NCBI RefSeq assembly: GCF_027604915.1
Contig: NZ_JAJAQC010000048.1
Location: 1 to 60,023, forward strand
Direction: 5' to 3'
Length of the DNA: 60,023 nt
From: Streptomonospora mangrovi
Lineage (GTDB): Bacteria > Actinomycetota > Actinomycetes > Streptosporangiales > Streptosporangiaceae
The notes under the pieces are model-generated. The model was not told where the DNA came from, did no database searches, and saw nothing but the letters and a program-made list of their open reading frames with translations. How positions within the stretch are numbered: position 1 is the stretch's first letter; every line of letters starts with the position of its first letter. This document shows, in pieces, positions 36,767 through 40,846 of the stretch. The position numbers and the translations under genes were made by a program.

Positions 36767-38563
36767 GTGACCAGCTTTTCCTCCCCGCCCCCGCGGCCGC
36801 TGGGCGTCGACGGCGGCCTGGCAGAGACCCTGTTCGACCGCGCCCGGCGCCACCCCGACGCGCCCATGATCAGCGTGCGCGGCGCGGACGGGTGGCGCAC
36901 CCGCACCGCCGCCCAGGTGCGCGACGACGTCGTGGCCCTCGCCAAGGGTCTGGTGGCCGCCGGCGTGGCCCCCGGCGACCGGGTGGGCCTGCTGTCGGCC
37001 AACCGCCACGAGTGGACCCTGCTGGACTACGCGATCTGGACGGCCGGCGCGGTCTCCGTGCCGATCTACCCGTCGTCCTCGGCCGAGCAGGTCGCGATGA
37101 TCCTGTCCGACTCCGGCGCGGTGGCCTGCGCGGTGGACGACGCCGAGCACACCGCGCTGGTCGAGGGCGCGCGCGAGGGGCTGCCCGGCCTCGCCCACGT
37201 GTGGACCATCGACTCCGGCGCGCTGGAGGAACTGCGCGAGGCGGGCGCCGGGGTGCCGGACTCCGCCGTGGCGGAGCGCCGCGCCGGGGTGGCCGTAGAG
37301 GACGCCGCCACCATCGTCTACACCTCCGGCACCACCGGCTCGCCCAAGGGGTGCGTCCTCACCCACGCCAACTTCCGCGCCGAGATCGCGGCGGTGGTCC
37401 AGGAACTGGCCGTGGTCTTCGAGCCCGAGCCCGACGGCACCCCGCCCTCCACGCTGCTGTTCCTGCCGCTGGCCCACGTGTTCGGCCGCATGGTGCAGGT
37501 CGGGGTCATCCACGCCGGCGCCTGCCTGGGCCACACCGCCAGCGTCCGCTCCCTCATCGACGACCTGGGCACCTTCCGGCCCACGTTCCTGCTGGCCGTG
37601 CCCTACGTCTTCGAGAAGATCCACGCCACCGCGCGCAAGCGCACCAGCGGGCTGAGCCGGCGGGTGTTCGACGCCGCCACCGACACCGCCGTGGCCTACA
37701 GCACGGCCCTGGACCGCGGCGGCCCCGGCCCGCTGCTGCGGCTGCGCCGCCGCCTCTTCGACGCGCTGGTCTACCGCAGGCTGATGGGCGCGCTCGGCGG
37801 GCGCTGCCGCCGCGTGATCTCCGGCGGCGGCGCGCTGGAGCCGCGCCTGCTGCACTTCTACCGGGGGATCGGCCTGGAGGTCTACGAGGGTTACGGCCTG
37901 ACCGAGACCACCGCCGCCGTCCTGGCCAACACCCCGGGCCGGGTGCGGCCGGGCACCATCGGCGGCCCGCTGCCCGGCGTGGAGGTCCGCCTGGCCGAGG
38001 ACGGCGAGCTCCTGGTCCGGGGCGGGCCGGTGTTCACCCGCTACTGGAACCGCCCCGAGGACACCGAGGCGGCGTTCGTCGACGGCTGGTTCGCCACCGG
38101 CGACCTCGGCGCGGTGGACGAGGACGGCTACATCAGCGTCGTCGGCCGCAAGAAGGAGATCCTGGTCACCGCCGGGGGCAAGAACGTCTCGCCGGTGCCG
38201 ACCGAGGAGCGCGTCTGCGCCCACCCGCTGATCGACCAGTGCATGCTGGTCGGCGACGGCCGCTCCTTCGTCGCCGCGCTGATCACCCTGGACGCCGACG
38301 AACTCGCCGCCTGGCGCGAACGCGAGGGCCACCCGGCCGCCGGGGACCCCGACTCCGACCCGGCCGTGCGCGCCGAGGTGCAGAAGGCGGTCGACGCCGC
38401 CAACCGGGCGGTCTCGCGTGCGGAGTCCATCCGGGCGTTCCGCATCCTGCCCGAGCCCTTCAGCGTCGAGACCGAGACCATGACCCCCACCCTCAAGCTG
38501 CGCCGCTCCCGGATCGCCGACCGCTACTCGGCCGCGATCGAGGAGATGTACACCAAGCGCTAG
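36767..38563 (+). CDS. Long-chain fatty-acid--CoA ligase (AMP-binding)
   Basis: Adenylate-forming enzyme of about 598 aa. The AMP-binding P-loop is YTSGTTGSPKG near residue 185, YGLTETTA is present, and the WFATGDLG and GRKKEILVTAGGKNVSP motifs define the long-chain acyl-CoA ligase group. The terminal lysine motif is TPTLKLRR. The start is uncertain: the GTG at 36767 is favoured because the residues encoded from the ATG at 36719 look non-coding and GGAGGA abuts the GTG. It probably activates fatty acids for lipid metabolism. Confidence 0.9.
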   Translation: MTSFSSPPPRPLGVDGGLAETLFDRARRHPDAPMISVRGADGWRTRTAAQVRDDVVALAKGLVAAGVAPGDRVGLLSANRHEWTLLDYAIWTAGAVSVPIYPSSSAEQVAMILSDSGAVACAVDDAEHTALVEGAREGLPGLAHVWTIDSGALEELREAGAGVPDSAVAERRAGVAVEDAATIVYTSGTTGSPKGCVLTHANFRAEIAAVVQELAVVFEPEPDGTPPSTLLFLPLAHVFGRMVQVGVIHAGACLGHTASVRSLIDDLGTFRPTFLLAVPYVFEKIHATARKRTSGLSRRVFDAATDTAVAYSTALDRGGPGPLLRLRRRLFDALVYRRLMGALGGRCRRVISGGGALEPRLLHFYRGIGLEVYEGYGLTETTAAVLANTPGRVRPGTIGGPLPGVEVRLAEDGELLVRGGPVFTRYWNRPEDTEAAFVDGWFATGDLGAVDEDGYISVVGRKKEILVTAGGKNVSPVPTEERVCAHPLIDQCMLVGDGRSFVAALITLDADELAAWREREGHPAAGDPDSDPAVRAEVQKAVDAANRAVSRAESIRAFRILPEPFSVETETMTPTLKLRRSRIADRYSAAIEEMYTKR

Positions 38564-38596
38564 CCCGGTGCGGCCCCCAGAAGGTGAGGAGCGCGC

Positions 38597-38602
38597 TACA
38601 CT
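38597..38602 (+). promoter_or_regulatory. Predicted -10 (TACACT) of the chorismate mutase leader
   Basis: TACACT lies seven bases before the ATG of the leader peptide, as in the leaderless arrangements elsewhere here. No good -35 seen. Confidence 0.5.
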
Positions 38603-38609
38603 CGGCGGC

Positions 38610-38669
38610 ATGATCTTCGGCTATCGCGACTTTAGGCAGCCGGCTGCGCGCCGGTCGCCCGCTGGTTGA
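38610..38669 (+). CDS. Putative 19-codon aromatic leader peptide before chorismate mutase
   Basis: Encodes MIFGYRDFRQPAARRSPAG, with Phe, Tyr and Phe at positions 3, 5 and 8. It begins seven bases after a TACACT -10 and ends 30 bases before a perfect intrinsic terminator that itself precedes the chorismate mutase gene. The codon for each aromatic residue could sense Phe/Tyr supply. A seven-pair hairpin, CCGCTGG/CCAGCGG (38659-38677), surrounds the stop codon. Ribosome-mediated attenuation is inferred from this architecture; no homologue was checked. Confidence 0.55.
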   Translation: MIFGYRDFRQPAARRSPAG

Positions 38670-38698
38670 CCCAGCGGTCGCGGTCCGCACGCCGGCTC

Positions 38699-38733
38699 AG
38701 GAGCGTCAAGGCACCCGCCTTGCGCTCCTTTTT
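38699..38733 (+). terminator. Attenuator-like intrinsic terminator upstream of chorismate mutase
   Basis: Stem AGGAGCG (38699-38705) pairs with CGCTCCT (38723-38729), and AAGGC (38708-38712) with GCCTT (38717-38721). TC opposite G forms a small internal loop, with a four-base loop ACCC at the tip and T5 at 38729-38733. It ends 70 bases before the chorismate mutase ATG, on the same strand. Because it sits between a promoter-like site and the gene rather than after a gene, attenuation is the natural reading. Confidence 0.8.
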
Positions 38734-38803
38734 GCGTCCAGCGGCGGCTCCGCGACCGATGACCGGAGTGGAGTGGCCGCAGGCCACACCACACGGAGGA
38801 ACC

Positions 38804-39160
38804 ATGGCTGAGACATCGCAGATCCCGCAGACCCCCGCCGCTTCACCCCTCGACACCGCCGCGCCCCTCGGCGGCGCGCCCGCCGCCGAGGTCGGCGAGC
38901 TGCGCCGGCGCATCGACCGCATCGACGCCCAGTTGGCCGAACTCCTGGAGCGCCGCGCGCTGCTCGCGGCCGACGTGCAGCGGCTCAAGCCGGTGGGCGG
39001 GTTCGCCGGGCGGGATCCCGAGCGCGAGCGGGCGCTGGTGGCGGCGATGGCCGAGCGCGCGCCCCGGCTGGGCGCGGCGCGGCTGGCCCGCATCATGGCC
39101 GGGGTGATCGAGGCCGGCCTGGAGGCCGCCGAGGAGGAGCGCGGCGCCGCCGCCCGCTGA
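38804..39160 (+). CDS. Chorismate mutase (AroQ type)
   Basis: 118 aa all-helical enzyme converting chorismate to prephenate for Phe and Tyr synthesis. The AroQ pattern is clear: LRRRIDRIDAQLAELLERRALLA from about residue 34, then LKPVGGF and GRDPERERALVAAM. The first 30 residues are Ala/Pro/Thr-rich and disordered. GGAGGAA lies close before the ATG. No aromatic biosynthetic gene is adjacent; an AMP-ligase gene precedes and ligD genes converge. The leader and terminator upstream suggest regulation by aromatic amino acids. Confidence 0.9.
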   Translation: MAETSQIPQTPAASPLDTAAPLGGAPAAEVGELRRRIDRIDAQLAELLERRALLAADVQRLKPVGGFAGRDPERERALVAAMAERAPRLGAARLARIMAGVIEAGLEAAEEERGAAAR

Positions 39161-39227
39161 GGGGCACCGCCTGGGGGACGCGTCCGCCTCCCGGCCCCTT
39201 GGGGCTCGCCCCGGCTCGGTCGTCGGC

Positions 39228-40181
39228 TCAGGCGCGCGCCGCGCGCAGCAGCCGCTCCAGCCGTTCGGCGGCCCGGCGCGGGGAGCGCGCCCGGCGCGCC
39301 ATGCCGTGCCAGGGGTCGCCGCCGGCCTCGCGGTGGGCGGCCAGGCGCTCGCCCACGGTGCGCACCGTCCAGGCGCCCGCCGACTCCACGCCGTCGAGTT
39401 CGGCCCAGTCCAGCGGCACCGCCACCGGGGCGTCGGGCAGCGCGCGCACCGCGTAGGGCGCCACGGCGTGCTGGGCGTAGGCGTTGCGCAGCACGTCCAG
39501 GAACAGCCGCCCCGCCCGCTTGGCCTTGCGGAACTCGGTGGTGTAGGCGTCGGGCCGGCGCCGCGCCACCAGTTCGGCCAGGCCGTGGGTGAACTCCCGG
39601 ATGCGGGCGAAGTCCAGTTCGGGCCGGATCGGGGCGACCACGTGCAGCCCCCGCGACCCGGTGGTCATGGTGAAGGGGACCAGGCCGATCTCCTCCAGGG
39701 CGGTGCGGACGTCGCGGGCGGCCTCGCGAACCAGCGCGAAGTCCGACCCGGAGGGGTCGAGGTCCACGATGACGCGGTCGGGGCACTCCAGGTGCCCGGC
39801 GCGGCTCAGCCACGGGTGCGGGGTGATCACCGCCTGGTCGGCCAGCCACACCAGGGTGGCGGTGTCGTCGCAGACCACCATGGTGATGCTGCCGCCGGTT
39901 TCGCGGCGCACCTCCACGCCCTTCACCCAGTCGGGGGCGTGGGCGGGCAGTTGCTTCTGGAAGAAGCCCTCGGTGCCGGTGCCGGGGGTGACACCGTCGG
40001 GGAAGCGGTGCAGGGCCAGCGGGCGCCCGCGCAGGTGGGGCAGCATCACGGGGGCGACGGCGCGGTAGTGCTCGGCCAGCTCCCGCTTGGTCACGCCCTC
40101 GGCGCCGAACAGCTCCTTGCCGGGGCGGCCCACCGGGACCGTGCGCCCGCCGGCGCGCAGCCGGGCCGGTGCCGCGCTCAT
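39228..40181 (-). CDS. LigD-type polymerase domain protein (NHEJ primase/polymerase)
   Basis: 317 aa archaeo-eukaryotic-primase-like polymerase of bacterial non-homologous end joining, as a stand-alone protein. The catalytic metal motif DLDP is in VIVDLDPSG. GTGTEGFFQKQLPAHAPDW and the TTGSRGLHVVAPI motif are characteristic of LigD polymerase domains. The ATG overlaps the stop of the phosphoesterase gene (ATGA), so the two are coupled. No ATP-dependent ligase domain or Ku gene lies in the window; they would have to be elsewhere. Confidence 0.92.
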   Translation of the reverse strand: MSAAPARLRAGGRTVPVGRPGKELFGAEGVTKRELAEHYRAVAPVMLPHLRGRPLALHRFPDGVTPGTGTEGFFQKQLPAHAPDWVKGVEVRRETGGSITMVVCDDTATLVWLADQAVITPHPWLSRAGHLECPDRVIVDLDPSGSDFALVREAARDVRTALEEIGLVPFTMTTGSRGLHVVAPIRPELDFARIREFTHGLAELVARRRPDAYTTEFRKAKRAGRLFLDVLRNAYAQHAVAPYAVRALPDAPVAVPLDWAELDGVESAGAWTVRTVGERLAAHREAGGDPWHGMARRARSPRRAAERLERLLRAARA

Positions 40182-40846
40182 CGGCCACCGCCCGAGCCGC
40201 GCGGCCGGCCGTGGAGGGTGCGGCCGTCGTCGTCGGCGATCTCGGTGAGGACCCGGCCGGTGCGCACCGACTCCGGGCGGGAGGCGACGGGGTCGGTGCG
40301 GGGGTCGGCGGCGGCGTCCTTCTCCTTGACCAGCAGCCACGCCTCCTCGCCGTCGCCGCCGCGGAACCGGTTGAGCGCGTAGCCGCCGCTGAGCTTCTCG
40401 CCGTGCAGCAGGAAGGACACGTGGCCGTGCGCCAGGCCCTCGGCCATGGTGAGCTCCCGGCCCTTCTTGGCGGTGGTGTTGGTGTAGGTGCCGGTGTCCC
40501 ACAGCAGCACGGTGCCGCCGCCGTACTCGCCGGCGGGGATGGTGCCCTCGAACTCGGCGTAGTCCAGCGGGTGGTCCTCGGTGGGCACGGCCAGCCGTCT
40601 CTCGCTGGGGTCGGTGGAGGGGCCCTTGGGCACCGCCCAGGACTTCAGCACGCCGTCGACCTCCAGCCGGAAGTCGTAGTGCTCGCGCCGGGCGATGTGG
40701 TGCTGGACGACGAACACGGGTTCGCCGCGGCCGCGGCGCCGCTTGCGGCGCGGCGCGCCCTCGGGTTCGCGGGTGCGGTCGAAGTCGCGCTTGCGCCGGT
40801 ACTCCGCGAGGCCGGCTCCGTCGGCCGGCCGGCCGCCCCGTTCCAT
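40178..40846 (-). CDS. LigD-type 3'-phosphoesterase domain protein
   Basis: 222 aa. It contains the phosphoesterase module that trims 3' ribonucleotide or phosphate ends: FVVQHHIARREHYDFRLEVDG with the conserved His/Arg/Asp residues, LKSWAVPKGPS, and HPLDYAEFEGTIPAGEYG. The N-terminal 35 residues are basic and disordered, as in LigD. It overlaps the polymerase gene by four bases. In Pseudomonas and Mycobacterium these modules are fused in one LigD; here they are separate, coupled genes. Confidence 0.92.
   Translation of the reverse strand: MERGGRPADGAGLAEYRRKRDFDRTREPEGAPRRKRRRGRGEPVFVVQHHIARREHYDFRLEVDGVLKSWAVPKGPSTDPSERRLAVPTEDHPLDYAEFEGTIPAGEYGGGTVLLWDTGTYTNTTAKKGRELTMAEGLAHGHVSFLLHGEKLSGGYALNRFRGGDGEEAWLLVKEKDAAADPRTDPVASRPESVRTGRVLTEIADDDGRTLHGRPRGSGGGR

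Follow-up and report, generated by a model that had tools for sequence, protein, structure and literature searches.

Chorismate mutase leads only to phenylalanine and tyrosine, while DAHP synthase serves all three aromatic amino acids. In the pheL-pheA attenuator of Escherichia coli, a short leader ORF with Phe codons and a terminator place a chorismate mutase gene under control; the leader ORF has a Shine-Dalgarno start, and the leader RNA forms overlapping alternative hairpins. This attenuator is named in the accessible part of a review (PMC11802643), and the available portions of PMC11802643 and PMC4046766 describe the aroR leader peptide of Corynebacterium glutamicum, which contains Phe-Tyr-Phe and precedes aroF (Neshat et al. 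2014). According to the same portion of the review, aroR-aroF is induced under Phe limitation, with Tyr availability being without effect. In the actinobacterial trp, ilv and leu attenuators, control codons lie in short ORFs, accompanied by hairpins and often by a terminator (PMC1262725 and PMC8079986, both accessible in part). For Streptomyces lividans, the available text of PMC8079986 lists eight leader peptides, the only aromatic ones being two for Trp, and describes several such leaders as leaderless. A 2005 survey found, as far as its accessible text goes, no conserved RNA structures 5' of Phe or Tyr operons in Actinobacteria (PMC1262725). Within the open PMC literature, which gives partial coverage and includes few subscription papers, neither a leader 5' of an actinobacterial chorismate mutase nor Trp-Tyr-Phe leaders 5' of aroF are reported.

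The window studied here (the whole stretch of DNA analysed, 60,023 nt) contains an element 5' of a chorismate mutase gene that we read, with a probability of about three in four, as a ribosome-mediated transcription attenuator, which would increase expression of chorismate mutase under a shortage of charged Phe-tRNA (and Tyr-tRNA). Both the direction of this response and the way in which the terminator is acted upon are inferred. The closest known system is aroR-aroF. On the partial descriptions available, both have a leader with Phe and Tyr codons and occur in Actinobacteria, and relatives of the element also precede DAHP synthase; aroR can be likened to it by description, not by sequence. 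They differ in that the gene in the window is chorismate mutase, so that a leader 5' of a DAHP synthase gene is found among the relatives and not in the window itself, and in that many aroF leaders found here contain Trp codons. Phe codons in a short leader ORF, a terminator and a chorismate mutase gene are shared with pheL-pheA of E. coli; in contrast, the element is probably leaderless, and no pairing that overlaps the terminator was found. Control codons are common to the element and to the actinobacterial trp, ilv and leu leaders, as far as these are described in the accessible sources, although the amino acids are others. The element fills the gap stated for actinobacterial Phe/Tyr operons in the available text of the 2005 survey (PMC1262725). 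Its parts are as follows.

38597..38602, forward strand: putative -10 box TACACT, read from the sequence, with a 7 nt gap to the ATG at 38610
38610..38669, forward strand: predicted leader ORF of 19 codons plus stop, MIFGYRDFRQPAARRSPAG, conserved in relatives
38622..38624, forward strand: Tyr5 codon TAT, one of the putative sensor codons (TAT bias in leaders)
38623..38630, forward strand: segment a, AUCGCGAC, predicted to pair with GUCGCGGU of a' (Bonferroni threshold passed in both swap maps)
38631..38633, forward strand: conserved Phe8 codon TTT, putative main sensor codon (TTT bias in leaders)
38638..38648, forward strand: segment b, within the leader ORF, predicted partner of b' or c (covariation)
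38650..38655, forward strand: segment c, within the leader ORF, local partner of b (38639-38644) in the RNAalifold consensus
38659..38677, forward strand: predicted stop-codon hairpin, arms 38659-38665 and 38671-38677 (sequence, covariation of its place)
38677..38684, forward strand: segment a', directly 3' of the leader stop codon (swap maps)
38686..38697, forward strand: segment b', 1 nt 5' of the terminator stem in the window (covariation, swap maps)
38699..38733, forward strand: predicted intrinsic terminator, stem 38699-38728 with a bulged T at 38706, loop ACCC, T5 at 38729-38733
38741..38754, forward strand: b'', a weaker repeat of b 3' of the terminator, able to pair with b' (duplex z-test)
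38795..38800, forward strand: Shine-Dalgarno sequence GGAGGA
38804..39160, forward strand: chorismate mutase gene, 118 aa (Pfam CM_2, E 1.4e-13)

An earlier note on this DNA had pointed to the -10 box, the ORF with Phe, Tyr and Phe among its first eight codons (Phe3, Tyr5 and Phe8), the hairpin at its stop codon (38667-38669) and the terminator with T5, all ahead of chorismate mutase, and each of these is present. From the position of the -10 box, transcription is inferred to start at about 38609-38610; with the ORF beginning 7 nt after this box, the leader mRNA is probably leaderless. A scan of 38400-39000 returned no promoter-like site with both hexamers, hence a -35 box is not evident, and the same scan gave one terminator-like site against 0.1 expected in shuffles. 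The 201-nt window leader folds better than 200/200 shuffles (z -3.9). A longer in-frame ORF with a TTG start (38666-39160) was considered as the start of chorismate mutase and rejected, since it crosses the terminator and only its residues 79-151 match CM_2.

Conservation of the element was assessed with two covariance models. The first (R1), built from 28 leaders, found full-length matches at E <= 5e-5 in 82/150 genomes of the GTDB family, the window and the training sequences included, and matches at E <= 0.1 in 92/150. In most of the cases checked within the family, the gene 3' of the element is chorismate mutase; for at least three of the 82 matches (G024, G059 and G340) it is DAHP synthase. 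A class-level search of 197 genomes with R1 revealed leaders in other families, some of them 5' of aroF (class I DAHP synthase); the DAHP synthase downstream of one of these, L163, was identified with Pfam and NCBIfam. The second model (R2), built from 25 leaders and with b:b' and the terminator as its structure, matched 65/345 class genomes in full length at E <= 2.8e-5, and 80/345 at E <= 0.02. The full-length matches are spread over eight families (f1, f3, f4, f19, f26, f36, f37 and f45), and all 20 of the R2 places that were fetched lie 5' of aroF. Two full-length matches are present in 13 of the 20 f19 genomes with an R2 match, and at least nine of these two-leader genomes have one copy 5' of aroF and one 5' of chorismate mutase. 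Such leader pairs, each from one genome, include L133 with L093, L134 with L101 and L135 with L100. Because both RNA models had the window among their training sequences, it is mainly conservation that rules out chance.

Reading the DNA upstream of chorismate mutase relatives gave the same arrangement in many of them, records of Murinocardiopsis, Marinactinospora and Actinomadura being examples. Relatives retain, upstream of chorismate mutase, the short ORF with its aromatic codons as well as the terminator, as revealed by the comparison that the earlier note had proposed. Others, the Herbidospora records among them, have no leader in the 420 bases shown, and an open frame enters the 5' side of the matched stretch. 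Two genomes of the window's genus (G296 and G297) carry both the chorismate mutase gene and the leader; G295, G298 and G299, of the same genus, have no chorismate mutase match (E <= 0.001) and no leader match. The gene 5' of the leader encodes an AMP-binding enzyme (an acyl-CoA synthetase) in the window, where it ends at 38563, 136 nt 5' of the terminator, and an AMP-binding enzyme also in G297 (leader L025); in G296 (leader L035) it is a haem peroxidase-family gene. The leader and terminator are therefore independent of the upstream gene. An explanation in which the terminator simply ends the acyl-CoA synthetase gene, chorismate mutase starts further down and the short ORF is incidental could appeal to that spacing and to the upstream gene retained in L025, the nearest relative, but is very improbable given that L035 keeps leader and terminator behind a gene of another family and that conservation of the sensor codons and helices extends across families and to leaders 5' of aroF.

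The element belongs to an RNA family with no Rfam match. Rfam models gave no match at E <= 1 in 37000-40500, and across eight loci the single match had an E-value of 0.098, with 29 bits against a gathering score of 82; membership of the T-box or another Rfam family was not found by covariance model. Partial R1 matches spanning model positions 30 to about 115, seven of which are L112-L118, contain no tRNA genes and were judged to be chance matches, as by eye they resemble coding sequence. Three weak matches (L162, L165 and L167) showed, by eye, neither a leader nor an aromatic gene.

The leader peptides were compared in a set of 125 leaders, for which the finder required a start codon preceded at 5-8 nt by a -10 box, a Phe at the conserved position and a complement between b and b'. 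Seven leaders (L041, L044, L045, L046, L047, L051 and L152), none of which has Trp, fall outside this set, and an alternative set of 91 leaders was obtained with a pattern that misses several Nocardiopsis-type leaders. The gap from the -10 box to the start codon, permitted by the finder to be 5-8 nt, is 7 nt in 101 leaders, 6 nt in 20, 8 nt in three and 5 nt in one. The conserved Phe, demanded by the finder, is encoded by TTT in 122 of the 125 leaders and by TTC in three, while TTT accounts for only 2/212 Phe codons in verified stretches of 95 downstream genes, the frames of which were fixed by an enzyme motif. Tyr 5' of the conserved Phe is TAT in 98/113 cases, compared to 4/130 Tyr codons in the verified downstream frames; other Phe codons 5' of the conserved Phe are TTC in 44/45. 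With the longest downstream ORF of any frame as background, wrong frames included, TTT makes up 7/434 and TAT 11/272. Among the aromatic codons of the window, that of Phe8 is the conserved one and Tyr5 is common; Phe3 is present in the identical peptide of L025 and absent in L035.

Aromatic residues are concentrated ahead of the conserved Phe. In leaders of chorismate mutase they make up 62/298 residues before it and 3/619 after it, and in aroF leaders 86/313 and 4/475, respectively; 10 of the 53 chorismate-mutase leaders have no Phe, Tyr or Trp before the conserved Phe. The attenuation by aromatic amino acids proposed in the earlier note is supported by this distribution. Trp occurs before or at the conserved Phe in 26/40 unique aroF peptides and in 0/53 unique chorismate-mutase peptides (Fisher p 3e-13, a value that ignores relatedness). 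Lineage explains part of this contrast, as the aroF leaders of the f19 genus g103 have no Trp. Of the four DAHP synthase leaders seen in the window's own family, three (L119, L122 and L166) contain Trp, L120/L164 being the exception. Since DAHP synthase opens the shared pathway, Trp, Tyr and Phe codons in aroF leaders are as expected, and this suggests a testable rule by which the aromatic codons of a leader would tell the place of the enzyme in the pathway. For these counts, two spurious candidates were dropped, and manual changes were made to L206, L214 and L218 (assigned to aroF) and to L048, L066 and L075 (position of the Phe). A further 27 unique peptides without a downstream-gene assignment lie outside the aroF and chorismate-mutase tallies; two of these 27, L122 (aroF, with Trp) and L194 (chorismate mutase, without Trp), were assigned later. 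L166, with the leader MQRNFWRFYGYRPAGG... (by eye), precedes another type of DAHP synthase and is likewise outside the counts.

Helices were sought with a swap test, in which the pairing energy of a leader's own segments is compared to that of segments exchanged between leaders, over 276 pairs of leader windows. In a first map of 59 dissimilar leaders, the terminator stem, a:a', b:b' and b:c rose above the Bonferroni threshold. These leaders came from a finder that demands a b:b' complement, which favours b:b', and the map was therefore repeated without this demand on 39 dissimilar leaders, where the terminator stem, a:a', b:b' and the stop-codon hairpin were above the threshold. The hairpin (window pair F+24 with stop+0) exceeds it just barely in the unfiltered map (p 1.5e-4) and does not reach it in the first (p 4.6e-4), while b:c, above it in the first map, falls below in the unfiltered one (p 0.02). 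We take the terminator, a:a', b:b' and the stop-codon hairpin as covarying helices on these sequence comparisons, and b:c less surely. The terminator arms have the strongest covariation of all segments and, in both maps, no pairing with any other segment above the Bonferroni threshold. Helix a:a' joins the codons directly 5' of Phe with the region around the stop codon; b:b' joins a segment about 8 nt past the Phe codon with one directly 5' of the terminator.

The earlier note had also seen that 38638-38648 could pair with 38686-38697 as an alternative fold, and this pairing turns out to be the conserved, covariation-supported helix b:b'. In alignment A2, the covariation score of b:b' with the terminator, and that of b:b' alone, were each reached by 0/500 shuffles. 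A control in which the partner was slid by one column is less clean: pairing drops from 86.6 to 54.7 percent, yet the slid partner has the higher covariation score (0.174 vs 0.142) and more double changes (11 vs 8 cells). Duplexes of the b region with sequence past the stop codon, formed with no b:b' demand, have a median z of -2.86 (81 leaders). Among 121 leaders to which the b:b' demand was applied, b:b' has a median of 12 uninterrupted pairs (G-U included), with b beginning 8 nt past the first base of the Phe codon in 77 leaders and 0-4 nt separating b' from the terminator stem in 98; b:b' values from the 125- and 121-leader sets are inflated, as these leaders were chosen partly by b:b' complementarity.

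By comparison with the classical trpL/pheL type of attenuator, the element has a (predicted) short ORF with end-product codons and, by sequence, an intrinsic terminator between leader ORF and structural gene, the terminator being present in 121/125 leaders. An antiterminator sharing bases with the terminator stem was tested for and is absent, so the element would work like an attenuator while departing from the classical type. An overlapping antiterminator was rejected by duplex tests, partition functions and swap tests, in agreement with the earlier note, which had failed to find a classical one, and its absence follows from the terminator pairing with nothing else.

To model translation of the leader, the RNA was masked up to 12 nt beyond the first base of the A-site codon to represent the ribosome. 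The terminator remains about 0.9 formed at every ribosome position tested (81 leaders), and stalling of the ribosome makes its 5' arm more accessible (0.675 vs 0.483, 121 leaders). L138 had appeared to behave classically and was rejected as such, its outer stem having been wrongly detected; once the right (inner) stem is used, the terminator of both L105 and L138 also stays formed. In L206 the terminator is 0.09 formed without a ribosome and about 1.0 when stalled, opposite to the expected direction. The equilibrium model without a ribosome is dominated by b:b', with at least 5 pairs in 95/121 leaders of the partly preselected set. With the ribosome on the aromatic codons, a:a' and b:c are gone in the model. 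The mean number of b:b' pairs is 11.7 with the A site two codons before Phe and 5.9 with the A site on Phe, and with the ribosome at the stop codon it is 0, by construction. In this model, the dependence on ribosome position follows the logic of classical attenuation, b:b' being the 'on' helix; antitermination is not seen in the computed folds, and any link between b:b' and the terminator is conjecture.

We propose the following sequence of states for the attenuator. Without a ribosome, the local folds a:a' and b:c could form and transcription would end at the terminator, a state that needs kinetic trapping of these folds, because b:b' dominates at equilibrium. When Phe and Tyr are sufficient, the ribosome would reach the stop codon, cover c and a' and part b from b', again with termination. 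When they are short, it would halt on the aromatic codons and open a:a' and b:c; b could then pair with b' directly ahead of the stalled ribosome, and the polymerase would read into chorismate mutase. As no overlap was found, the read-through step would not occur by sequence overlap with the terminator. We favour, as a guess, a link in which b:b' docks the stalled ribosome onto RNA polymerase, so that the terminator hairpin is hindered in space. Such docking fits all three ribosome states. The element would be a natural example of an attenuator whose switch lies next to the terminator instead of competing with it for the same bases. The Tyr codons may not matter in the window, given that Tyr availability is without effect on aroR-aroF in the accessible text of PMC11802643.

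The proximity of b' to the terminator stem in the 98 leaders mentioned above would also suit the opposite role for b:b', namely that it helps the terminator by stacking on the stem, giving more termination when Phe and Tyr suffice, while a stalled ribosome blocks it and leads to read-through. In favour of this, placing the A site on the Phe codon reduces b:b' from about 9.6 pairs to 5.9. However, a ribosome at the stop codon also blocks b:b' (by construction), which would give read-through in plenty, and b:b' peaks (11.7 pairs) when the ribosome is a little further 5', on Tyr or Trp codons. We therefore regard stacking as unlikely.

A second alternative places the effect of the stalled ribosome on translation of chorismate mutase: freed b' would pair with b'' and alter access to the ribosome-binding site, the terminator setting a base level only. 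Duplexes between b' and b'' are stronger than shuffles (median z -1.37, 81 leaders), own pairs beat the mean swap in 59/86 leaders (p 7e-4), and in some leaders, L156 and L160 among them, covering b increases site access as expected. The b':b'' windows nevertheless fall below the Bonferroni threshold in both swap maps. Over 80 leaders, the mean change in access is +0.016 with b' present and +0.025 for stalled vs full RNA, with an increase in 32 leaders and a decrease in 19 in the latter comparison. Overall, these 80 leaders do not support a role of b'' in controlling the ribosome-binding site, and we consider it quite improbable. Long complementarity of b'' to b' is seen in some relatives, such as L157, L150 and L156.

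Returning to attenuation with a docked ribosome, a wider picture can be sketched, which we hold tentatively and with more doubt than belief: a widespread, undescribed actinobacterial RNA family may control both DAHP synthase (with Trp, Tyr and Phe codons) and chorismate mutase (Tyr and Phe), with a terminator free of shared pairing and a helix that docks the stalled ribosome at RNA polymerase. Such leaders may serve strain engineering for aromatic products in actinomycetes.

Some of the surrounding genes deserve mention. In L008 (1395-2255), chorismate mutase stands behind a short, apparently incomplete DAHP-synthase-like domain, the downstream protein matching DAHP_synth_1 (E 4.2e-8) and CM_2 (E 1.3e-10); a DAHP-synthase-like piece fused to chorismate mutase can follow the leader in Streptosporangiaceae-like genomes. 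The only f19 protein scanned, L094 1622-2332, has an N-terminal part with no Pfam DAHP_synth_1 match. In the window, open frames at 39228-40846 on the reverse strand, convergent with the chorismate mutase gene, have translations that seem to resemble two parts of a LigD-type DNA repair ligase, the polymerase and the phosphoesterase.
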